Below, piece after piece: positions 12,996 to 28,152 of a stretch of DNA of 64,000 bases. The translations under genes were made by a program, and so were the position numbers. The notes beneath the pieces are model-generated. The model was not told the origin of the DNA, did no database searches, and was given only the letters and a program-made list of their open reading frames with translations. The stretch is from contig PQAL01000038.1 of assembly GCA_003105035.1 (NCBI GenBank), forward strand, positions 1 through 64,000, in the 5' to 3' direction. Position 1 is the stretch's first letter. Each line of letters starts with the position of its first letter. The DNA comes from Anaerolineales bacterium (GTDB lineage Bacteria > Chloroflexota > Anaerolineae > Anaerolineales > UBA4823).

Positions 12996-13577
12996 TCAGG
13001 GTAACATCGCAGCTAAAGTAGCCCGCCTCTCCGTAAAAGCTGCGTCCTCCTCAAGAGGTGGGCACTCATCAAGTTCACGCTCCTGCAGCAGCAGGTTACA
13101 GGCAAAAGCCATACAGGTAGCCTCGCCGCATCTTTTACAGTTGGTTTGGGGCAGTAATGTCCACACATCCAGTGGGCGCGGGGCATGCTTACGCGCAGTC
13201 ATCGCCACTAGCTCATCCCGGTGATCCCAGGTGGCATTGATCGCCTCTGCCAGGGCTTTGAGCAGCTCCAGGCCTTCCTCGGTATCTGTTACTTTCGTTA
13301 TATAGGCTTTTTCTGAGTACAAAGTGATGAAACCCGGCTGGCGGCGCAAGGTGAGGGTGCATGAATCTGGATTATAAGAAATGACGTTTGGCAGGGTCGC
13401 CAAATAAGGGAGCACATCATCGAGCTTGCGGGAGGGCACGCCAATGACAATGATCTTGCCCGGCTCAGCCAGGCAGGGTAAGGTTTTTACCAGTGTGATT
13501 GCTTCAAGAAACATTCCCGCCTCACGGTCGAAACATATCACTTGTAACCTGGGTGATGCCTGCACCAGGCACCTCAA
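12996..13577 (-). CDS. 4Fe-4S domain protein, last gene of the arsR operon
   Basis: A 193-residue protein whose C-terminal part (about 140-180) is a 4Fe-4S domain of the kind found in the large corrinoid iron-sulfur protein and in electron-transfer proteins: TNCKRCGEATCMAFACNLL followed by a fourth Cys in DECPPL. The N-terminal part (FLEAITLVKTLPCLAEPGKIIVIGVPSRKLDDVLPYL) is not recognised. The start is unsure: the track's TTG at 13577 is directly preceded by an in-frame TGA, and a GTG a few codons later is possible. It lies 10 bases after the 48-residue gene. It probably handles electrons for the operon (inference). Confidence 0.78.
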   Translation of the reverse strand: MRCLVQASPRLQVICFDREAGMFLEAITLVKTLPCLAEPGKIIVIGVPSRKLDDVLPYLATLPNVISYNPDSCTLTLRRQPGFITLYSEKAYITKVTDTEEGLELLKALAEAINATWDHRDELVAMTARKHAPRPLDVWTLLPQTNCKRCGEATCMAFACNLLLQERELDECPPLEEDAAFTERRATLAAMLP

Positions 13578-13587
13578 TCATTACGTG

Positions 13588-13734
13588 TCAGCCCCCTTCG
13601 AGCAGCTCCCGGGCTTTCCCTTTGAAGTGAACCTTTAGGAAGACCAACGCCTCATCGGCATCATCGTCAATCAGGATGCGCATCAGTTGTATGATCTGAG
13701 CATCTTCCAGGACAATATTGATCCCTTTTTTCAT
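13588..13734 (-). CDS. 48-residue conserved-looking small protein
   Basis: A short gene between the thioredoxin-like and 4Fe-4S genes: starts MKKGINIVLEDAQIIQ, contains RILIDDDADEALVFLKVHF, ends KARELLEGG. It has an excellent ribosome-binding site (AGGAGG, 6 bases before ATG), is in the same direction, and fills the otherwise empty 197-base gap. No cysteine, no membrane segment; acidic with predicted helices. I do not recognise the family. Its location makes it part of the arsR operon. Confidence 0.75.
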   Translation of the reverse strand: MKKGINIVLEDAQIIQLMRILIDDDADEALVFLKVHFKGKARELLEGG

Positions 13735-13774
13735 GACAGCCTCCTCACCTTAGGCTCAGAAACCGATCAATCCA

Positions 13775-14041
13775 TCACTCTGCCAGGGCACCTCGCAGCC
13801 AGCCAAGCACTTCGTCACGCGCTGGAAATCTGCCCGCACAGACCAGCTTTTCATTCACCACCAGGCTCGGGGCTGCCAGGATTGGGGTATATTGCTCGAT
13901 GGTGAACCAATCCTTCAGCTCCATGATGTTTATATTCACGTCCGGATGCTCATCGTGAATTATTCGTTGCGCTGATAACACGGTTTGCCTGACTGCATAA
14001 CGCTGGGCGGAATGATAGCTGAGGATTTTAATCTCAATCAC
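13775..14041 (-). CDS. Thioredoxin-fold protein lacking the CxxC motif
   Basis: An 88-residue protein that aligns by eye with the 81-residue small thioredoxin encoded at 15526-15771: both share a C-terminal PxLVVNEK-VCA segment. Where the sibling has GSGCENCQ, this one has YHSAQRYA, so both redox cysteines are lost. A cysteine remains in the shared LVCAGRFP segment. It cannot do dithiol-disulfide exchange by the normal mechanism; a binding or scaffolding role is possible. It overlaps the acr3 stop by 4 bases. Confidence 0.85.
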
Positions 14042-15114
14042 CCCGAGAACACTCGCTTCTTCAACCAGAAGGCTACATTCACCAGGCCGATCATGACCGG
14101 CACCTCTACCAGGGGTCCGATGACAGCCGCAAACGCCTGCCCCGATGCAATCCCAAACACCGCCACGGCCACGGCGATCGCCAGCTCGAAGTTATTGCTG
14201 GCGGCGGTGAATGACAAGGTGACGGTCTGGGCGTATGTAGCTCCAATGGCTTTACCCATTAAGAAACTGCTCAAGAACATGATCACAAAATAAAACAAAA
14301 GCGGGATGGCAATGCGTACCACATCCAGTGGCAGCTGCACGATGTACTCACCCTTTAGGCTGAACATCACCACGATGGTGAATAACAACGCCACTAGGGT
14401 GATCGGGCTGATCTTGGGGATGAATTTAGTGTGGTACCACTCTTTCCCTTTGGCTCGCACCAGGAAAAAGCGGGTCAGGAATCCAGCGATGAATGGGATA
14501 CCCAGGTAAATGAAAACACTCTTGGCGATATCGCTGATGGTGATATCCACGGTTTTCCCCGCCATCCCAAACCAGGTGGGCAGGACGGTGATAAAGACAT
14601 AGGCGAACACGGAGTAAAACAGCACCTGGAAGATGCTATTGAATGCCACCAGCCCGGCAGCGTATTCGGTATCGCCTTTGGCAAGCTCATTCCACACGAT
14701 AACCATGGCAATACAACGCGCTAGGCCAATCAGGATGAGGCCGGTCATGTAATCGGGATAATCACGCAGGAAGAGCACGGCCAGGAAAAACATCAGGATA
14801 GGCCCAATCACCCAGTTTTGCAGGAGCGATAATCCCAACACTTTCCAGTTGCGGAAGACATCCCCCAATTCTTCATAGCGGACCTTCGCCAGTGGTGGGT
14901 ACATCATTAAGATAAGCCCGATGGCGATTGGAATATTGGTCGTGCCAACCGATACAGCCTGGTTGAATTGTTGGACTGCTTCTGGGAATAGATAGCCGAT
15001 AGCGACACCAATCACCATCGCCATGAATATCCATAAGGTAAGGTAGCGATCAAGGAAGGATAATCGTTTCGTTATGCCCACATCAGAGCGCAATGAAGAA
15101 CTTTTTGCTGTCAT
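14038..15114 (-). CDS. acr3: Arsenite efflux permease, Acr3 family
   Basis: Membrane transporter of 358 residues with about ten hydrophobic segments, which exports arsenite from the cytoplasm. The Acr3 hallmarks are visible: [18 protein letters not shown] with the conserved Cys and Trp-Asn, and [18 protein letters not shown]. Acr3 is driven by the membrane potential and is distinct from ArsB. It overlaps arsC by 4 bases (ATGA) and the following thioredoxin-like gene by 4 bases. Confidence 0.95.
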
Positions 15115-15539
15115 GAAGCACCTCGTTCGTAATCTTGTAATAATGCAATGATTTCTCGGGTCATATCGTCTCGAACCTTTCGAAAATCGTTGATGTCATC
15201 GGATTTTGCTGGATCGGGGAAGTCGTGATGTAATCGTTTCCCTTTCCCAAGCCATACAGGACATTCTTCAGCGGCGGAATCACATAAAGTCACGACCAGG
15301 TCGAAATCCACTCCACGAAACCCATCAACCAGTTTTGAACTTCCAGCGTGTTGAATGCCCATTTCTGAAAGCACAGTCAATGCTTTTGGATGGACATATC
15401 CAGTCGGTTTTGTCCCTGCGCTTACCGCTTGCCAGGTATCGCTCAGGCGAGAGTTGACGATCGCCTCAGCCATCTGGGAGCGACAAGAATTACCTGTGCA
15501 CAGGAAGAGTACTTTTTGTCTCAATTTACACCAATGCAT
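15111..15539 (-). CDS. arsC: Arsenate reductase, low-molecular-weight phosphatase type
   Basis: Reduces arsenate to arsenite for export by Acr3. The 142-residue protein has the P-loop CTGNSCRS with catalytic Cys near residue 14, and later redox cysteines in [16 protein letters not shown], as in thioredoxin-coupled ArsC of Staphylococcus and Bacillus type. Catalysis by this class requires a thioredoxin. A small thioredoxin gene lies directly upstream, overlapping by 14 bases. An in-frame TTG shortly downstream is an alternative start. Confidence 0.94.
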
Positions 15540-15771
15540 TCACCAGCCAGGTGGTCACCTCGGCTTCGGTGGGGATGCGCGCCGCACACACCACCTTTTC
15601 GTTAACCACCAGGCCCGGCGTTCCCAGGATGGGGTACTTGCGGATTTCATCCCACTCGGTCACCTTGATCACCTTCGCTTCCAATCCCATGCTGGCAATA
15701 ACCTTACGGGCCATGCCTTCGACTTTCTGACAATTTTCACAACCCGATCCTAAGACTTTTACAATTAACAT
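15526..15771 (-). CDS. Small thioredoxin-family redox protein (CxxC present)
   Basis: An 81-residue thioredoxin-fold protein of the kind found beside arsenic and methanogen redox genes. The active site is GSGCENCQ near residues 9-15, followed by TPGLVVNEKVVCAAR; the cis-Pro is in the GTPG segment. It most likely supplies electrons to ArsC; its overlap with arsC supports that. AGGAGAT precedes the ATG. Compare the degenerate sibling at 13775-14041. Confidence 0.92.
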   Translation of the reverse strand: MLIVKVLGSGCENCQKVEGMARKVIASMGLEAKVIKVTEWDEIRKYPILGTPGLVVNEKVVCAARIPTEAEVTTWLVNALV

Positions 15772-15806
15772 GCCTCATCTCCTCATTGTAGTAAAAGATA
15801 AACAGT

Positions 15807-16256
15807 TCAAATAATTTCAATCTCTGGCTCAAGAATTACTTCAGACTTGATCGAATTCGCCACCAGGCTGTATTTTTGCGCCGCTCTTAATGCCCGCTGG
15901 ACACGATTTTGGATATCTGCCGCTGCCTCAAACCCGGCTTTGACCCTGATATGAGGGGTAAGCCTGACCTGTGTAAAACGTTCGGTGTGATCCAGCTCAA
16001 TCAATTTCGTTCCTTCAGCCCGACATTGGTACGCTGCCAGGTCCAACCTTAATCGCTCACAGGACCATAGGAATACCAGCATGATGCAGGTATTCACTGC
16101 AGCCACGAAGGCATCCTCAGGGGTGAGCACGCCCGGCGTGCCATGCGCTTCAGGCGGAGCCGAAAACTCCAGCACTGGTCCGTTCCCCAGGCTGACCGTG
16201 CCTGAATGTTCCAGCGTCCATTCAACTGTTGTAGTGTATATGGTTGTCTGGCTCAT
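15807..16256 (-). CDS. OsmC family protein
   Basis: A 149-residue OsmC/Ohr-type protein. The conserved central segment is TPEDAFVAAVNTCIMLVFLWSCERL; OsmC/Ohr enzymes use two cysteines, and here Cys occurs in NTCIM and SCERL. Family members reduce organic hydroperoxides using lipoyl-linked reductants (Ohr uses lipoylated proteins), which is interesting next to the lipoyl-type protein of this operon. The ATG at 16256 overlaps the stop of the upstream gene as ATGA; the longer frame to 16277 is not needed. Confidence 0.85.
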   Translation of the reverse strand: MSQTTIYTTTVEWTLEHSGTVSLGNGPVLEFSAPPEAHGTPGVLTPEDAFVAAVNTCIMLVFLWSCERLRLDLAAYQCRAEGTKLIELDHTERFTQVRLTPHIRVKAGFEAAADIQNRVQRALRAAQKYSLVANSIKSEVILEPEIEII

Positions 16257-16999
16257 TTGTTTTTTTCCTTGAACCAAAAATCCGCATAGGCACGCGAAAT
16301 CCCTTCCCGGTATGCCATTTCTTCACCATCGGGGACGGGATTGTAGACCTTGACGGTTTCCATCAGCTCATTCAGGTTCTCATCGGATGGAAATTTACCG
16401 GCTTCAGTAAATTGTTGGAAGATGAGCGGGATACCGACCAGGGTGATGAGCTCCCCTGAGATGAGTACCTCCTGGATGGGGATCCCTGAACCGCAGGCAC
16501 AGGTGGCCACCACGGGCTGGCCACTGGCTTCTTGCTGGACGATACCAATTGCATCCAGCTGGATGAATTCTCCATCGCTTAGGTTCCATTGTTTTCCCAG
16601 CAGCTCATCCACCCGTTGGGCGATCTCATCCGCCAGCAGGTCAACCGCTTGCAGCCCAGCTGCATTTAATTTTCGCCTGCCTTGCAGCTCTCCAAGCTGG
16701 TTACCCGCGATAACGTCTCGCACCACATAGCTGGCGGCAGGGCGATTGGAATATCTTTCGGTAGCCTTCTGGGCACAGCGTAGCTCGCAGCCATCCACAG
16801 CGATGGTGGGGTGGAACCTGGCAAATGCTCGGTCACCTTCCCCACCCGCCAGGAACAATGGCAGGCAAAGCGTGACGGTTTCGTTTGGACGCAGATGTTC
16901 AAGCACCCGCAGGGCAGCCAGTCGGGTGACGGTGCCCTCTTCCAGCTCCTCTCCTGAGCAGGCGATGATGCCTACCTTCCTCATCGGCAGGTCAACCAT
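16253..16999 (-). CDS. DGC-domain cysteine protein with extended C-terminus
   Basis: A 248-residue protein with an N-terminal DGC domain (database name: putative zinc-binding protein). Cysteines are seen at 14 (IIACSG), 45, 71 and 75 (VDGCELRCAQK). A C-terminal part (about 165-248), with CACGSG and ISGELITLVGIPLIFQQF, is not recognised and is absent from its neighbour. GGAGGAG precedes the ATG at 16999. It overlaps the second DGC gene by 8 bases and the OsmC gene by 4. Metal or metalloid binding is plausible from the cysteines but not shown. Confidence 0.75.
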   Translation of the reverse strand: MVDLPMRKVGIIACSGEELEEGTVTRLAALRVLEHLRPNETVTLCLPLFLAGGEGDRAFARFHPTIAVDGCELRCAQKATERYSNRPAASYVVRDVIAGNQLGELQGRRKLNAAGLQAVDLLADEIAQRVDELLGKQWNLSDGEFIQLDAIGIVQQEASGQPVVATCACGSGIPIQEVLISGELITLVGIPLIFQQFTEAGKFPSDENLNELMETVKVYNPVPDGEEMAYREGISRAYADFWFKEKNK

Positions 17000-17426
17000 T
17001 GTCTCCTCCTTCCGCAGGGCCGGAAATCTCATCCACTATCTCAGCTATTTCTTTCGCCAGTGCCTCAGCTAGTTGCACTCCACCTTCATTTAGCTCAGCA
17101 ATTCCCTGCGGTTTAAATTGCTTATAGCGGCGGTAAACTTCCAGGACGGCGAATTCTGTATGTACCCTACCCCCACTCTCGCGCACCATTTTCGAGGCAC
17201 ATGCCAGCTTGCAGCCATCGATGGTGATGGCAGGACTGTTTTTTACCAAAGTTTGTGCTGCAGGCTCCCCGAGGACAAGCTTGGAGAGCGCCACCAGCTG
17301 GGTGGTCTCCGGTCGCATATCCTCGACGACGACATAAGCAGCTTCGCGGCTGACGGAACCATAAGTCTTGCCGATACCACTGCAAGGCACAATGACTACT
17401 TTTCCATGCAGTCTGCTCTCGCTCAT
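16992..17426 (-). CDS. DGC-domain cysteine protein, short form
   Basis: A 144-residue protein made of one DGC domain. It shares with the following gene the PCSGxG start (Cys15) and TIDGCKLACASK (Cys72, Cys76), plus the region ending in a coil-like ALAKEIAEIVDEI. It lacks the internal Cys seen at residue 45 of the longer protein. DGC proteins are scattered in anaerobes and archaea, often near redox genes. Tandem different-length DGC genes suggest a duplicated or heteromeric partner (inference). It overlaps the H-like gene by 4 bases. Confidence 0.76.
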   Translation of the reverse strand: MSESRLHGKVVIVPCSGIGKTYGSVSREAAYVVVEDMRPETTQLVALSKLVLGEPAAQTLVKNSPAITIDGCKLACASKMVRESGGRVHTEFAVLEVYRRYKQFKPQGIAELNEGGVQLAEALAKEIAEIVDEISGPAEGGDNG

Positions 17427-17875
17427 GCTTTCCCTGCCTCCTGCTCGGCTTCCCGCTTTACCTTCTGATAATAGGCAAGCGGTTCCAATAAACTTTCTAA
17501 AATTGGTTCCTCATCCAGGCTTTCCATCAATACCAGCCAACCCTCGCCGTAAGGATTCTCATTGATGATCTCCGGATGGCTTCCCATCATCGGATTCACC
17601 TGGATCACCTTTCCAGGGATGGGTGCTGGCAGGCTGATGGTTACCTTGATGGTTTCAACCGCGGCCAATTCATCACCGCCCCTCACTACCGAACCCTCCG
17701 GCTTGACTTCGGCAAAGGCAATGTCACCGCTGCGCCGCTGTAGATAATCAGAAATGCCCACCCAGAAGTGATGACCTTCCTGCCTTACCCACAGTCCATC
17801 AGTGCTATATAGGCGGTCTGTCGGAATAGTAAACGTGAATTTATCAACGGTAAAATTATAGCTATCGGGATTCAT
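17423..17875 (-). CDS. Glycine cleavage H-like lipoyl carrier protein
   Basis: A 150-residue protein with a biotinyl/lipoyl domain: VGISDYLQRRSGDIAFAEV, then the lipoylation site ETIK (Lys77) within AAVETIKVTISLPAPIPGKV, and PYGEGWLVLM at the end of the domain. The Lys environment ESVK of GcvH is here ETIK. No glycine cleavage T or P protein is in the window, so a role in glycine cleavage is doubtful; the protein resembles stand-alone lipoate-binding proteins (LbpA) of sulfur metabolism. Dihydrolipoyl dithiols bind trivalent arsenic tightly, which may explain its place in this operon (inference). Confidence 0.83.
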   Translation of the reverse strand: MNPDSYNFTVDKFTFTIPTDRLYSTDGLWVRQEGHHFWVGISDYLQRRSGDIAFAEVKPEGSVVRGGDELAAVETIKVTISLPAPIPGKVIQVNPMMGSHPEIINENPYGEGWLVLMESLDEEPILESLLEPLAYYQKVKREAEQEAGKA

Positions 17876-17898
17876 CAGGCTTTTGATCCTTTCGAGTC

Positions 17899-18258
17899 CT
17901 ACTTGTGACTATTCGTTTTCTCTATGGTCGGATTACATTTCGGGCAGGGGCAATTGTCGACCTTCGCATTAGCTTTTATTGATGTAGCTCCACTCATCTG
18001 ATTAGCATAATCAATCAGTTCGTAGATTTCGGGTTTAATCACGCGGTAGAACACCCGGGTACCATCGCGCCGGTCATCAACCAGCCCCACATCACGCAAT
18101 ACCATCAAGTGCTGAGAGATATATGCCTGCCGGCAGCTAAGCACTGCTTCCAGGTGGCAGACACACTGCTCGCCATCGCGCAGGATATCAAGGATCATCA
18201 TCCGCGATGGATGCATCAATGCTTTAAATATGCTTTCGGTTGGAGTAAGGTTTGGCAT
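17899..18258 (-). CDS. arsR: ArsR/SmtB family transcriptional repressor
   Basis: A 119-residue winged-helix repressor: Cys-Val-Cys motif in EQCVCHLEAV (Cys32, Cys34) at the start of the DNA-binding region, as in As(III)-sensing ArsR, and recognition-helix sequence SCRQAYISQHLMVLR. A C-terminal NCPCPKCNP cluster (Cys103, Cys105, Cys108) may form an extra metalloid site. It would bind the palindrome in its own promoter and be released by arsenite. First gene of the operon; the H-like gene follows after 23 bases. Confidence 0.93.
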   Translation of the reverse strand: MPNLTPTESIFKALMHPSRMMILDILRDGEQCVCHLEAVLSCRQAYISQHLMVLRDVGLVDDRRDGTRVFYRVIKPEIYELIDYANQMSGATSIKANAKVDNCPCPKCNPTIEKTNSHK

Positions 18259-18291: not shown

Positions 18292-18311
18292 ATATTCAAT
18301 TAATTGAATAT
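18292..18311. promoter_or_regulatory. ArsR operator, perfect 20-bp palindrome
   Basis: ATATTCAATTAATTGAATAT is a perfect palindrome, of the ATTCAA...TTGAAT type bound by ArsR proteins. It begins immediately downstream of the -10 box of the arsR promoter, covering the predicted transcription start, where a bound repressor would block RNA polymerase. Confidence 0.85.
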
Positions 18312-18340
18312 ATTATAGTGCCATCCGGCACCTCTTTCAA
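18312..18340 (-). promoter_or_regulatory. Promoter of the arsR operon
   Basis: On the minus strand TTGAAA (18340-18335) is followed after exactly 17 bases by TATAAT (18317-18312), a near-perfect housekeeping promoter. The palindromic operator begins at the next base. Confidence 0.88.
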
Positions 18341-23747: not shown

Positions 23748-25187
23748 CTAGTGCTCTGGGATCTCCCGCTCTGCCCGACGGAGAATCTTCTCCACTTTTT
23801 CACTCACCTCTCCAGGTAGCGGGTCGATCACCGGTCCTTCCAGGATGGACTGCACCAATTCACGGGCTTTCGAATACATTGACGGTTTCCCGATACTGAC
23901 CCAGCTCTCAAGCGAATGACGGTCTATCAACGCCGGGGTATATAGCTCATTTCCCCGTGCAGCCAAACGGGTGCTTTTTGCCCCCAAGAAATGCCCCCCA
24001 GGCCCAACCCGGCTGATATCTTCTAGCAGGTCTTTTCCATCCGAGCAGTCCACACCCTGCGCCAGGCGTTGCAACAGGTGCGCGATCTCGTTATCCACCA
24101 CAATTTGCTCCAAGACGAGCAGCTGGTCACTCTCGATTTCGCCAAAACCCACCAGGATATCCGCACCAGCCAAGACCGACGGCAATGTGGTGATGATTTT
24201 TTCGATCACTGCTTCCGGCCCGGCTTGCTTGGCATCGGAGGTGAACCCTGCCCCACTGGATGGGAAGCCATAATAGTGCGCCATTTCCACCAGGGCGGCA
24301 GTTTGCAATGCCATCTCTGGCACACCAGCCAGGTAGGCACCGCTCCGGAAATCGGTGATAGCCGTGGAGCTGGAGAAAATGATCGGCCGGCCTGGATGCG
24401 CCAACTGGAAGATCACCAGCGATGAGAGCATCTCAGCGTTCGCCAGGGCGATGTTCGATAGCAAGCTGGCCGGTCCGGTGGTGCCAATCACCGGCATGGG
24501 CATGCACATCACGGGTAGGTCGACCTGACCGAGCTCGAGGTAGGCGTCCAGCATCTGCCCATCATGGGTCAATGGGGCCACCGGGCAATAGATTAGCGAA
24601 TAGGCGTGGCTTTCCTTCAAGGTGGTTTCGCTGCCCACGATTGCCGCCAACCCTTCGATCAGGAAAGGTGCTTGTGCCACCGTATGCAGCTCGTGCTGAC
24701 CATGTTTAGAGCAATTGGTAGCCATGCTCAAGAATTCGTACAATGCCCGGATGTGGGCGGGCTTGTCTGCCGCACAGGTGGGCGCCCAGGCCATCACCCC
24801 CATATCCATCTGCTGAAAGACCTTCAAAGCTATTTCGATGTCCTGGCTGGTGCCGTAGCGTCGCTCACCACTTTGAAAATCCAGGGCAAAGGCAGCCGTC
24901 CCATCCAACCCGTAGCGAGTTTGCAGGGTGGGTAATGCCAGGTTGTAGGTGGGGTTGCGTGCCTCAAGCACGAACGACCTTGGTGCAGTTTTCAAGGCCT
25001 GGTTCACCAGCTCGGTGGGTATTTTGGCAATCCTCTCTTGTGGGTCGATGGGTATTCCATGACTACGAAAGATTTTCGGTGCCTGGTCCCCATAAAACCG
25101 AATGCCCACTTCCTCCAGAATGTGCAGGCTCATGTTGTGGACGCGGTGTTGTTCTTCTTCTGTCAGAATCTGGGCGGTGAACTGCAT
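23748..25187 (-). CDS. MttB-family (non-pyrrolysine) methyltransferase 1
   Basis: A 479-residue trimethylamine methyltransferase-family protein. Shared landmarks are MHVRxLEEVGIR-like N-terminal (SLHILEEVGIRFYG), GTTGPASLLSN and RVGPGGHFLGAKSTR. There is no internal amber codon, so it is not a pyrrolysine TMA methyltransferase; homologues without pyrrolysine demethylate glycine betaine (MtgB), proline betaine or carnitine and transfer the methyl to a corrinoid protein. The substrate here is unknown. GGAGG precedes the ATG. Last gene of the transporter-mttB operon. Confidence 0.9.
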   Translation of the reverse strand: MQFTAQILTEEEQHRVHNMSLHILEEVGIRFYGDQAPKIFRSHGIPIDPQERIAKIPTELVNQALKTAPRSFVLEARNPTYNLALPTLQTRYGLDGTAAFALDFQSGERRYGTSQDIEIALKVFQQMDMGVMAWAPTCAADKPAHIRALYEFLSMATNCSKHGQHELHTVAQAPFLIEGLAAIVGSETTLKESHAYSLIYCPVAPLTHDGQMLDAYLELGQVDLPVMCMPMPVIGTTGPASLLSNIALANAEMLSSLVIFQLAHPGRPIIFSSSTAITDFRSGAYLAGVPEMALQTAALVEMAHYYGFPSSGAGFTSDAKQAGPEAVIEKIITTLPSVLAGADILVGFGEIESDQLLVLEQIVVDNEIAHLLQRLAQGVDCSDGKDLLEDISRVGPGGHFLGAKSTRLAARGNELYTPALIDRHSLESWVSIGKPSMYSKARELVQSILEGPVIDPLPGEVSEKVEKILRRAEREIPEH

Positions 25188-25234
25188 AATTCCTCCGTGT
25201 CTTGGTGATCTAAATGACCTGGAAAGCTTGCGAT

Positions 25235-26689
25235 CTAGTGACCTTTTTCCTGGTCTGCAGCTTTCAATAGATTGCGTAGCTCAGCTTTTTGAGCGTCTTC
25301 CAGGGGCTGGGGATAATGGTTGGCCAGGATCCATTCCACTTTTTCGCGGGCTACTTCAAGGACGTCCCGATAGTCTCCGGCCAAGTTTCGCTGGCCGGTC
25401 AGGTTGGAGTATTGGCGCTGGCGTAGATTTTGGCGGGTATGCCGATGAGCCAGGTATTGGCCGCGTGGGCCGACCTCGCGGATCACATCCAAGGCTAAGG
25501 CCTCAGGGCTGGTGTTAAAATGGGAGGCTTCATGCCTGACACGATGGTATACATCGGCGTCCAATAAGATTGCTTCAGGGTAGAGCAACATGCACGACTC
25601 AACCAAGCCTAATCCACTGCCGGTTTCAGCGCCTGCCAGCGCGCACAACAATAATGACGATTCAGCTTCCGCAGCTGATTGCCAGCCTGGGACAACTGCA
25701 TCTGTCCCGAAGATACCGGCCAACGTGGGCACTCCCCAATGGTGGGCCATCTCCGCGCCCAACGGGTACAGCTGCGAGCCCTCGAATGTGCTGCTCTGGT
25801 AATCGCCGGTACGTGGGTGCATGATACCGGGCATCAGGGAGTGAAATACTGGGGCACCTGGCGCTGCCATCTGCAGCAACACCAGGGCGGAGATGATCTC
25901 TGCATCCCCGGTGACCAGCGTGCCTGCCAGGGTGGCCGGTGCGGTGGTCCCGGTATTGACCATCGACATGAATCCCACCGGCAGACCTGCTTCGGCAAAC
26001 ACTAGGGCTGATTCCAGACCATCGCGATCCTGGGCTAGGGGTGCGATGCAACATACCAACAAGGACAGGGGCGGACGCTGGCGCCTGACCTGCTCAGAAC
26101 CTGCCACCACGTTTGCCATTTCGATGGCATAACGTGCCGTCCATTCGCCCATGATGGTCTCAGATTGGATATGCTTTATGGTATTGTTGAAAGATGCCTC
26201 AATTTCGTGGAGCGGGGCAGTCTCAGGGTAATCCTGTGCACTGACGATCGGCCAGTAGAATCCCAGGGCGCTCAGGTAGTCGGATACCCTGGCCATGGCA
26301 GCCACATCTTCTTTTCTGGAGCGCCTTCTCTGGCGGGTGACAAAATCGATGGTTTCAACCCCACACCCATCCGTTGCGCAATACAAGGCTGTGCCATCCA
26401 GGTGCAAATCGAAGTCCTGGGAACGCGCCCCCATGGTGTAGTAACGCGGGGCATGATTCATAGTCTCCAGCACCACCTCGCTGGGCAGCTTTACCAGCTG
26501 GCGCTGAAAATCCACCCTGCCGCCATGCTCGGCGTAGATTTTTAGTGCCATCTCCGATGGGCAGTGCACCCCCACCTGTTCCAGGATCTCCAGGGTGGCC
26601 GCCTGCAGCTCATTAAGCTGGCGTTCATCCAGGATATTCACATGGTAACCGGGCACGATCGGTTGCAGGGCGGGAGTTTCACTAGCCAT
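25235..26689 (-). CDS. MttB-family (non-pyrrolysine) methyltransferase 2
   Basis: A 484-residue MttB homologue. It is closest in the cluster to methyltransferase 3: both have DGCGVETIDF-TRQRR, GTTAPATLAG, QMAAPGAPVFHSL-type sequence, and AEMAHHWG. It lacks the GPGGHFLG sequence of copy 1, having GPRGQYLAHRHTR. No in-frame stop interrupts it. Corrinoid partner not found in the window. Spacing to copy 3 is 5 bases, so translation is coupled. Confidence 0.88.
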   Translation of the reverse strand: MASETPALQPIVPGYHVNILDERQLNELQAATLEILEQVGVHCPSEMALKIYAEHGGRVDFQRQLVKLPSEVVLETMNHAPRYYTMGARSQDFDLHLDGTALYCATDGCGVETIDFVTRQRRRSRKEDVAAMARVSDYLSALGFYWPIVSAQDYPETAPLHEIEASFNNTIKHIQSETIMGEWTARYAIEMANVVAGSEQVRRQRPPLSLLVCCIAPLAQDRDGLESALVFAEAGLPVGFMSMVNTGTTAPATLAGTLVTGDAEIISALVLLQMAAPGAPVFHSLMPGIMHPRTGDYQSSTFEGSQLYPLGAEMAHHWGVPTLAGIFGTDAVVPGWQSAAEAESSLLLCALAGAETGSGLGLVESCMLLYPEAILLDADVYHRVRHEASHFNTSPEALALDVIREVGPRGQYLAHRHTRQNLRQRQYSNLTGQRNLAGDYRDVLEVAREKVEWILANHYPQPLEDAQKAELRNLLKAADQEKGH

Positions 26690-26694
26690 AGTTG

Positions 26695-28152
26695 CTACCC
26701 CTTGCGAAGCTCTTTATCCGCAGCCGCCAAAATCCGTTTAAGCTCAGCCTGTTTTTCACCTTCCAATGCCTGTGGATGATGATTCTTGCGGATCCAATCG
26801 ACCTTTTCAATCGCAACCTGGCGAGGGTCGCGATATTTTCCATCTTCACCGATCTGGTGATTAATGCCGCGAACCAGCGATTCGCGGATGTGGTTGCGAG
26901 TATGCCTCTGCCCCAGATAATGACCACCCGGACCGACCGCATGAACCGTGTCGAGCGCTAATGTCTCGGGGCTCACCTCCAGATCCATCAGCTGGTAGCG
27001 AGCCCGCTGGTACAGGTCATCATCCATGATGATCTGTTCAGGGTAGAGCAGCGTGTATGTCTCTGAGAGCCCCAATCCGGTGACAATATCTGCACCGGCC
27101 AAACCAGCCAGGTATGGATCCAGTGCCACCTCCCCTGCACCCAGCCATGTGCCGGGTTCATGGGCATCCGTGCCGTAGCAAGCTCCCAGTGAAGCCATAC
27201 CCCAATGGTGGGCCATTTCCACCGGTGCGTAGCGCGTCCGGCTATCCAGCGAATAACTCACATAGCCCCCCGTGCGCGGGTCAGCCCAGGCTTGCATCAA
27301 CGAGTGAAAAACCGGGGCACCAGGGGCGTGAAGCTGCATGAGCACCGTTGCGCTGATAATCTCAGCATCCCCCATGGCAAATGCACCGGCCAGGGTAGCG
27401 GGGGCGGTCGTCCCCAGGGTGGGCATGGCCAGGAACCCGACTGGTAGCCCAGCTTCTGCCAATACCAGCGCACCTTCGATCCCAGCCGTGTCTTGCACCA
27501 ACGGAGCGATCGTGCACACCACTAGCGAGAACGGTGGGCGCTGGCGCAGCTCCTCCCGGCTTCCGGCGATCACACTAGCCATCTCAGCAGCATACCGGCA
27601 GGGAATTTCCCCCATCACCGTTTCACTTTGCACATGCTTTACCGAGTTATTCCAGGCGGCATCGATTTCATGCAGTGGGGCAGTCTCGCCGTGATCCTGG
27701 GCACTCACCATCGGCCAGATAAATGCAATGGATGGCAGGTAATCGGAGATCAAGGCCATCGTTCCAACGTCAGCCTTGCATGAAGGCCGCCGCTGCCGGG
27801 TGGTAAAGTCAATGGTCTCCACCCCGCACCCGTCTGTAGTAAAGAATGTCACTCCCTGGGCCAGCTGCAAGTCATAGCTCGGTCGCCGCGCGCCTAGTAT
27901 AAAATAGCGGGGAACCGTGAATAAGGCTCTCAAAACAAAATCCGGCTGCATTCTGACCACCTGCGACTGCCAGTCCACTTGCGCACCGTGTTCGGCAAAG
28001 ATCGACAGGGCTTTTTGGGATGGAAATCGTACGCCAGTCTTATCTAAGATCTCCAGCGTTGCGGCTTGCAAATCATCCAGCTGTTTATCGGTCAGGAATT
28101 GCAGGTGATAATTGGTCTGTAATGGTTGTAAGGGTGGGTATTCGGTTGGCAT
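26695..28152 (-). CDS. MttB-family (non-pyrrolysine) methyltransferase 3
   Basis: A 485-residue MttB homologue, sister of copy 2 by shared motifs (TTDGCGVETIDF, GTTAPATLAGAF, VEMAHHWG). The C-terminal VGPGGHYLGQRHTR matches the family. An AAGGATAAATT ribosome-binding site precedes the ATG. The duplication that made copies 2 and 3 is older than a recent tandem event, since DNA similarity by eye is only partial. Predicted methyl donor unknown. Confidence 0.88.
   Translation of the reverse strand: MPTEYPPLQPLQTNYHLQFLTDKQLDDLQAATLEILDKTGVRFPSQKALSIFAEHGAQVDWQSQVVRMQPDFVLRALFTVPRYFILGARRPSYDLQLAQGVTFFTTDGCGVETIDFTTRQRRPSCKADVGTMALISDYLPSIAFIWPMVSAQDHGETAPLHEIDAAWNNSVKHVQSETVMGEIPCRYAAEMASVIAGSREELRQRPPFSLVVCTIAPLVQDTAGIEGALVLAEAGLPVGFLAMPTLGTTAPATLAGAFAMGDAEIISATVLMQLHAPGAPVFHSLMQAWADPRTGGYVSYSLDSRTRYAPVEMAHHWGMASLGACYGTDAHEPGTWLGAGEVALDPYLAGLAGADIVTGLGLSETYTLLYPEQIIMDDDLYQRARYQLMDLEVSPETLALDTVHAVGPGGHYLGQRHTRNHIRESLVRGINHQIGEDGKYRDPRQVAIEKVDWIRKNHHPQALEGEKQAELKRILAAADKELRKG

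Follow-up and report, generated by a model that had tools for sequence, protein, structure and literature searches.

The gene at positions 17423–17875 of the minus strand of the window, a 64,000-nucleotide stretch of DNA from an Anaerolineales bacterium, encodes an H-protein-like lipoyl carrier, here called LipH, that groups with neither the glycine cleavage H-proteins (GcvH) nor the LbpA proteins of the sulfur-oxidizing sHdr systems. Judged from sequence comparison, LipH would be a dedicated carrier serving the cysteine proteins encoded beside it, under common control with arsenic resistance. We give this reading a probability of about 0.6. That LipH is the dedicated lipoyl carrier of its gene cassette seems very probable, and the function of the cassette is probably tied to arsenic.

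The LipH operon and its candidate operator

LipH is the second gene of an operon with the order ArsR, LipH, DGC1, DGC2, OsmC, thioredoxin, ArsC-like protein, ACR3 and thioredoxin-like protein. From 18258 down to 13775 all genes lie on the minus strand, and six junctions overlap. The features are as follows.

18312–18340, minus strand: sigma-70-like promoter TTGAAA-17-TATAAT directly before the palindrome, assigned from an 11/12 consensus match only
18292–18311, no strand: candidate ArsR operator, perfect 20-bp palindrome ATATTCAATTAATTGAATAT, core TATTCA-N6-TGAATA
17899–18258, minus strand: ArsR/SmtB-family repressor with Cys32-Val-Cys34 and a C-terminal CPCPKC
17423–17875, minus strand: LipH, H-protein-like lipoyl carrier with Lys77 in ETIK and a 15-residue N-terminal extension
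16992–17426, minus strand: DGC1, DGC-domain protein with a PCSGIGK loop and DGCxxxC
16253–17032, minus strand: DGC2, DGC-domain protein whose C-terminal extension carries CACGSG; translation probably starts at 16999
15807–16277, minus strand: OsmC-family protein, peroxidatic Cys present, Ser in place of the resolving Cys; translation probably starts at 16256
15526–15771, minus strand: MTH895/ArsE-family thioredoxin-like protein with GCENC (80.3 bits, cut-off 62)
15111–15539, minus strand: ArsC-like protein of low-molecular-weight phosphatase fold, a relative of thioredoxin-type arsenate reductases, below the NCBIfam equivalog cut-off
14038–15114, minus strand: ACR3-family arsenite efflux transporter (467.5 bits, cut-off 282.8)
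13775–14041, minus strand: second thioredoxin-like protein, degenerate, last of the coupled operon (31.1 bits, below cut-off)
12996–13577, minus strand: Fe-S protein with a 4Fe-4S domain (PF04060), 198 bp past the operon end

The operon thus holds the ArsR, ACR3 and ArsC-type reductase genes of an arsenic resistance operon, with ACR3 scoring above its cut-off and ArsC below the equivalog cut-off. It resembles known arsR-arsC-acr3 operons in its ArsR with the CVC motif, ArsC-like protein, ACR3 and thioredoxins, but adds the quartet LipH-DGC1-DGC2-OsmC, which appears in no ars operon of the literature searched. A literature search for lipoyl carriers or GcvH in ars operons found no report, and one on the DGC family yielded nothing relevant, most subscription journals lying outside the coverage of both. 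The LipH clade and an arsenic-linked use of lipoate are likely to be new to the literature.

The palindrome was the sole match in the window at up to three mismatches, with 0 expected in shuffled sequences. Its core was also found upstream of five other LipH cassettes, exactly in L040 and L073, with one mismatch in L007 and L075 and with two in L039. At one mismatch or fewer, 6 matches were observed compared with 0.4 in shuffled DNA of the same loci. In L040 the core lies immediately 5' of LipH and no arsR adjoins. Binding of As(III) at Cys32/Cys34 of ArsR would release the operon, which is probably arsenic-inducible.

Two further features of the window were recorded. The PF04060 protein is uncharacterised, carries its 4Fe-4S domain at the C-terminus and has kin around the LipH cassettes of L007, L075, L093, L096, L097 and L102, in two phyla; it may be an electron donor of the cassette. 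At 23748–28152 (minus strand) lie three tandem trimethylamine-methyltransferase-like genes of the MttB superfamily, scoring below the trimethylamine equivalog cut-off. All are open and contain no pyrrolysine TAG.

LipH forms a third clade of H-like proteins

The LipH reading frame is intact, begins with ATG and encodes 150 residues. It scored 96.6 bits against Pfam GCV_H (PF01597; cut-off 22.2), and solved H-proteins align to residues 16–141, with ETIK opposite the lipoyl ESVK motif. Lys77, the predicted lipoylation site, is unchanged in 21/21 relatives; E74, T75 and K77 are all invariant across LipH proteins. The 15-residue N-terminal extension is common to these proteins and contains the invariant residues K12, F13 and F15. 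Scores against the more specific NCBIfam models fell below cut-off for NF002270 (GcvH; 103.2 bits, cut-off 117), TIGR00527 (GcvH; 90.1 bits, cut-off 115.85) and NF045810 (GcvH_rel_desulf; 52.3 bits, cut-off 150).

The same genome carries gcvH-gcvPA-gcvPB plus gcvT on another contig (C32). The gcvH product of that set passes both NCBIfam GcvH cut-offs, at 159.5 bits (NF002270) and 141.9 bits (TIGR00527), and is about 39% identical to LipH. LipH is a paralogue of an ordinary gcvH product present in the same genome. Two H-like genes were found in all; searching to E 10 gave one further match, weak and partial (E 0.785), and no third H-like protein fit for LbpA. Elsewhere the genome encodes LipA and two LplA-type proteins, together with one dihydrolipoyl dehydrogenase that scores above cut-off, and the operon itself is without dihydrolipoyl dehydrogenase, lipoyl synthase or lipoyl ligase genes.

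A tree was calculated from 82 H-like proteins over 134 columns, in which the deep branching order stays uncertain. The window protein falls in a LipH clade of 21 sequences (support 99/96), separate from an LbpA clade of six (99/95) and a GcvH clade of 55 (86/78). By this phylogeny LipH is a third clade, outside both GcvH and the sHdr-linked LbpA. One protein from the search for relatives, L008 of Nitrospirota, was rejected as LipH, as it groups with GcvH in the tree.

The LbpA proteins in the tree come from L104 and L105, clusters in related genomes with Hdr-like proteins, LipS1, LipS2 and lipoyl ligase. These two loci (genomes G039 and G038, of the order of the window genome) encode Etf, Hdr-like proteins and LbpA-like proteins, the last as three tandem copies; L104 holds LipS1, LipS2 and the lipoyl ligase as well. 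They are sHdr-type systems in relatives of the window bacterium.

LipH shares the fold family and lipoyl lysine of GcvH, and its Pfam match and conserved lysine would fit an ordinary or spare glycine cleavage H-protein that had drifted into the ars operon. Such an origin is highly improbable in view of the complete gcv set elsewhere in the genome, the separate clade, the low scores against both NCBIfam GcvH models and the lack of gcvP near any of the 21 LipH loci. LipH also differs from GcvH in its K12/F13/F15 extension and in having no gcvP or gcvT alongside; its neighbours encode ArsR, two DGC proteins, OsmC, a thioredoxin, an ArsC-like protein and ACR3. The preliminary description of this gene, as one that keeps the lipoylation lysine but stands apart from gcvT and gcvP and outside glycine cleavage, agrees with these results: the protein is neither placed within ordinary GcvH nor the sole copy in its genome.

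The same description took LbpA as its model and proposed arsenic or sulfur chemistry for the lipoyl arm. GcvH paralogues can serve pathways other than glycine cleavage, and LbpA of the sHdr system is an example (PMC10332631). LbpA resembles LipH as a GcvH paralogue devoted to another pathway, sometimes with lipoylation genes of its own. A sulfur or persulfide carrier of this kind, in a system whose ArsR-type protein would respond to sulfane sulfur, would be in keeping with the GcvH-like LbpA and ArsR-type repressors of sHdr systems, and the window ArsR matches BigR with 59 bits. This score is nevertheless far under the cut-off of 155, LipH lies in a different clade, and its genome yielded no LbpA-like copy. 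The partners of LipH are DGC, OsmC and ars proteins rather than shdr products, and where sHdr systems use LipS1/LipS2, LipA and LplA-type proteins are found on the LipH side. No shdr, lipS1 or lipS2 genes lie beside LipH in the window (12996–18258) or at the cassette loci. Sulfur carriage is therefore improbable. The arsenic half of the earlier proposal is retained, through the operon, the Cys32-x-Cys34 motif of ArsR, the operator and the recurrence described below; the analogy with LbpA and sulfur oxidation is not.

Recurrence of the cassette

Profile searches separated the LipH proteins of cassettes (at least 130 bits) from gcv-linked proteins (at most 125 bits). The quartet LipH-DGC1-DGC2-OsmC occurs in the phylum of the window and in Thermodesulfobacteriota. 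The neighbourhoods of 21 LipH loci were compared with those of 23 ordinary gcvH loci treated in the same way. The DGC pair was found at 19/21 LipH loci and 0/23 gcvH loci (Fisher 1.5e-10), OsmC at 17/21 and 0/23 (8.7e-9), any of ACR3, ArsC, ArsM, ArsA or ArsD at 12/21 and 0/23 (1.4e-5), and gcvP at 0/21 and 22/23 (2.2e-11). These p-values overstate independence, since the LipH loci have a common ancestry and most controls belong to the phylum of the window. The pattern persists in two phyla despite differing gene orders. ACR3 is present at 11 of the 21 loci. Nine showed no arsenic gene in the DNA examined, several of these being truncated at contig ends, though not L007, L072, L073 and L103. 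Most LipH loci come from metagenome bins, and the evidence is comparative throughout.

Genome surveys gave a similar picture. Among 400 genomes of the window's phylum, LipH was found in five, all with the DGC pair, while any DGC gene occurred in 4 of the other 395. The phylum of G455 was surveyed in 395 genomes; 11 have LipH, 10 of them together with the DGC pair, and in the remaining one the contig stops right past LipH.

In four cassettes of Thermodesulfobacteriota (L095, L096, L097 and L103) OsmC is directly followed by genes for dihydrolipoyl dehydrogenase (Lpd), LipA and an LplA-type ligase, in this order. Lpd and LipA of these cassettes score above the NCBIfam cut-offs, the proteins having been identified in L096. 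L101 and L102 have dihydrolipoyl dehydrogenase after OsmC. No other observation speaks as clearly for lipoylation and redox cycling of LipH as this co-occurrence of Lpd, LipA and LplA-type ligase genes with the cassette.

A LipH-DGC1 fusion suggested by L075 was rejected, as LipH lies in another frame and the DGC1 reading frame had been over-extended upstream. DGC pairs seemingly without LipH were accounted for by L156, a cassette with the same Lpd, LipA and LplA-type genes that is cut by the contig end just before LipH, and by L155 and L157, which have a different, corrinoid-linked arrangement. DGC2 gave no match in plasmids.

Other genes were seen around the cassettes. In L007 (6568–7833) and L073 (11241–12605) OsmC is followed by a radical SAM/SPASM protein similar to the tungsten-oxidoreductase maturase TIGR04317, below cut-off. 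In L093, L094, L095, L096 and L097, all of Thermodesulfobacteriota, a protein of 112–118 residues with a GGCSC motif is encoded upstream of LipH; the one copy scanned (L095) matched no NCBIfam or Pfam family.

The cysteine proteins of the cassette

DGC1 proteins conserve PCSG-G-K and DGCxxxC, with three conserved cysteines. DGC2 proteins conserve C-GEE, the Cys of TVTxCLPLF and DGCxxxC. The AF2 model of DGC1 (pLDDT 90.8) is an alpha/beta sandwich. Its matches to SIS-, flavodoxin- and lumazine-synthase-like folds (Z up to 7.7) were dismissed as a common alpha/beta arrangement, and no specific PDB relative and no Foldseek match under 0.001 were found. For DGC2 the model was of low confidence (pLDDT 75.9), and a fold search with it returned nothing. 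The family annotation (PF08859) gives only a presumed metal-binding domain, and we know of no DGC protein with known activity. In the same phylum as the LipH carriers, DGC genes without LipH occur among ArsR, ACR3, thioredoxin and permease genes. Because they sit in such arsenic and permease clusters, the DGC family leans toward the handling of arsenic or related metalloids.

The OsmC-like proteins have an invariant peroxidatic C54, with the Glu of TPED kept, while the resolving position is an invariant S127 (15 sequences). They therefore lack the cysteine pair of Ohr/OsmC thiol peroxidases. In Ohr, of the OsmC superfamily, a lipoylated protein reduces the disulfide in which the resolving Cys takes part (PMC5962072). 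Since the OsmC-like proteins are without a resolving cysteine, this cycle cannot be transferred unchanged; we infer that the active Cys would react directly with the lipoyl dithiol.

The Ohr precedent, together with the presence of OsmC at 17/21 LipH loci, raises the prospect that LipH donates electrons to an OsmC-type peroxidase in thiol or peroxide stress, the arsenic genes being present since arsenite causes thiol stress. A further precedent is GcvH-L of the SirTM operon, a non-glycine GcvH paralogue linked to oxidative stress (PMC4518038). The SirTM-macrodomain-LplA2 operon is similar in combining a GcvH paralogue with a stress operon and an operon-specific lipoyl ligase, but a Pfam scan of ten proteins of the LipH operon region gave no sirtuin or macrodomain, and arsenic genes are found instead. 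The Ohr/OsmC peroxidases likewise combine a peroxidatic Cys with a lipoyl carrier, but here the resolving Cys is Ser and the donor would be a dedicated H-like protein rather than an E2 subunit. The DGC pair is moreover more constant than OsmC, and the cassette carriers belong largely to anaerobic lineages. A role in stress defence of this kind is unlikely and, like sulfur carriage, less likely than a carrier for the cysteine proteins co-controlled with arsenic resistance.

Dithiols bind As(III). The reduced LipH dithiol might hence hold As(III) and pass it on to the cysteines of the DGC proteins and to ACR3, acting as a chaperone rather than an electron carrier. The three conserved cysteines of DGC1, ACR3 at 11/21 loci and the metallochaperone ArsD beside the cassette in L006 are consistent with this. 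The dihydrolipoyl dehydrogenase of the Thermodesulfobacteriota cassettes, however, implies redox turnover, and OsmC retains a peroxidase-type active cysteine, so that arsenic holding of this kind has a low probability.

Proposed mechanism

In the favored reading, of a dedicated carrier for the cassette's cysteine proteins, Lys77 of LipH would be lipoylated by the LipA and LplA-type enzymes of the cell, and dihydrolipoyl dehydrogenase would use NADH to hold the lipoyl arm in the reduced state. The dithiol arm could then pass electrons to the three-cysteine site of DGC1/DGC2 and to the single active cysteine of OsmC. Alternatively, it could take over a thiol- or arsenic-bound intermediate from the cysteines of these proteins. 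Whether LipH is an electron donor to DGC and OsmC, rather than an arm that holds arsenic or sulfur, is close to evenly balanced, with the odds falling slightly short of even. The reaction would yield an arsenic product exportable via ACR3, and redox chemistry performed on arsenic by the lipoyl arm is possible.

More tentatively, the cassette may encode a new lipoate-dependent enzyme system. Its two DGC proteins, along with an OsmC that has a single active cysteine, would transform an arsenic species (methylated, thiolated or pentavalent, for example) while it is carried on LipH, for which dedicated genes of lipoylation and reduction exist. Known lipoate-dependent systems are few. If true, this would add a further use of protein-bound lipoate to those in 2-oxoacid dehydrogenases, glycine cleavage and sHdr sulfur oxidation. 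A third H-like clade that occurs in two phyla beside two cysteine proteins of uncharacterised function, and in some genomes beside a lipoylation set of its own, makes an undescribed lipoate pathway directly testable. The DGC family (PF08859) thereby acquires a first partner as well as a likely context, and an arsenic-handling route of anaerobic sediments and soils could be uncovered.

H-like proteins near other DGC pairs

The GcvH_rel_desulf proteins (NF045810) are also GcvH-like, and members or near-members of this family are encoded near DGC pairs in L155 (G671:C153) and L157 (G793:C76). LipH scores too low for the family, and these two loci differ from the LipH cassettes in carrying corrinoid methyl-transfer genes. 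Their neighbours include MtaA/CmuA (L157), a corrinoid activase, DUF2284 and an arsenite methyltransferase (L155). L155 and L157 possibly represent a methyl-transfer or demethylation pathway that uses the same pairing of lipoyl and DGC proteins.
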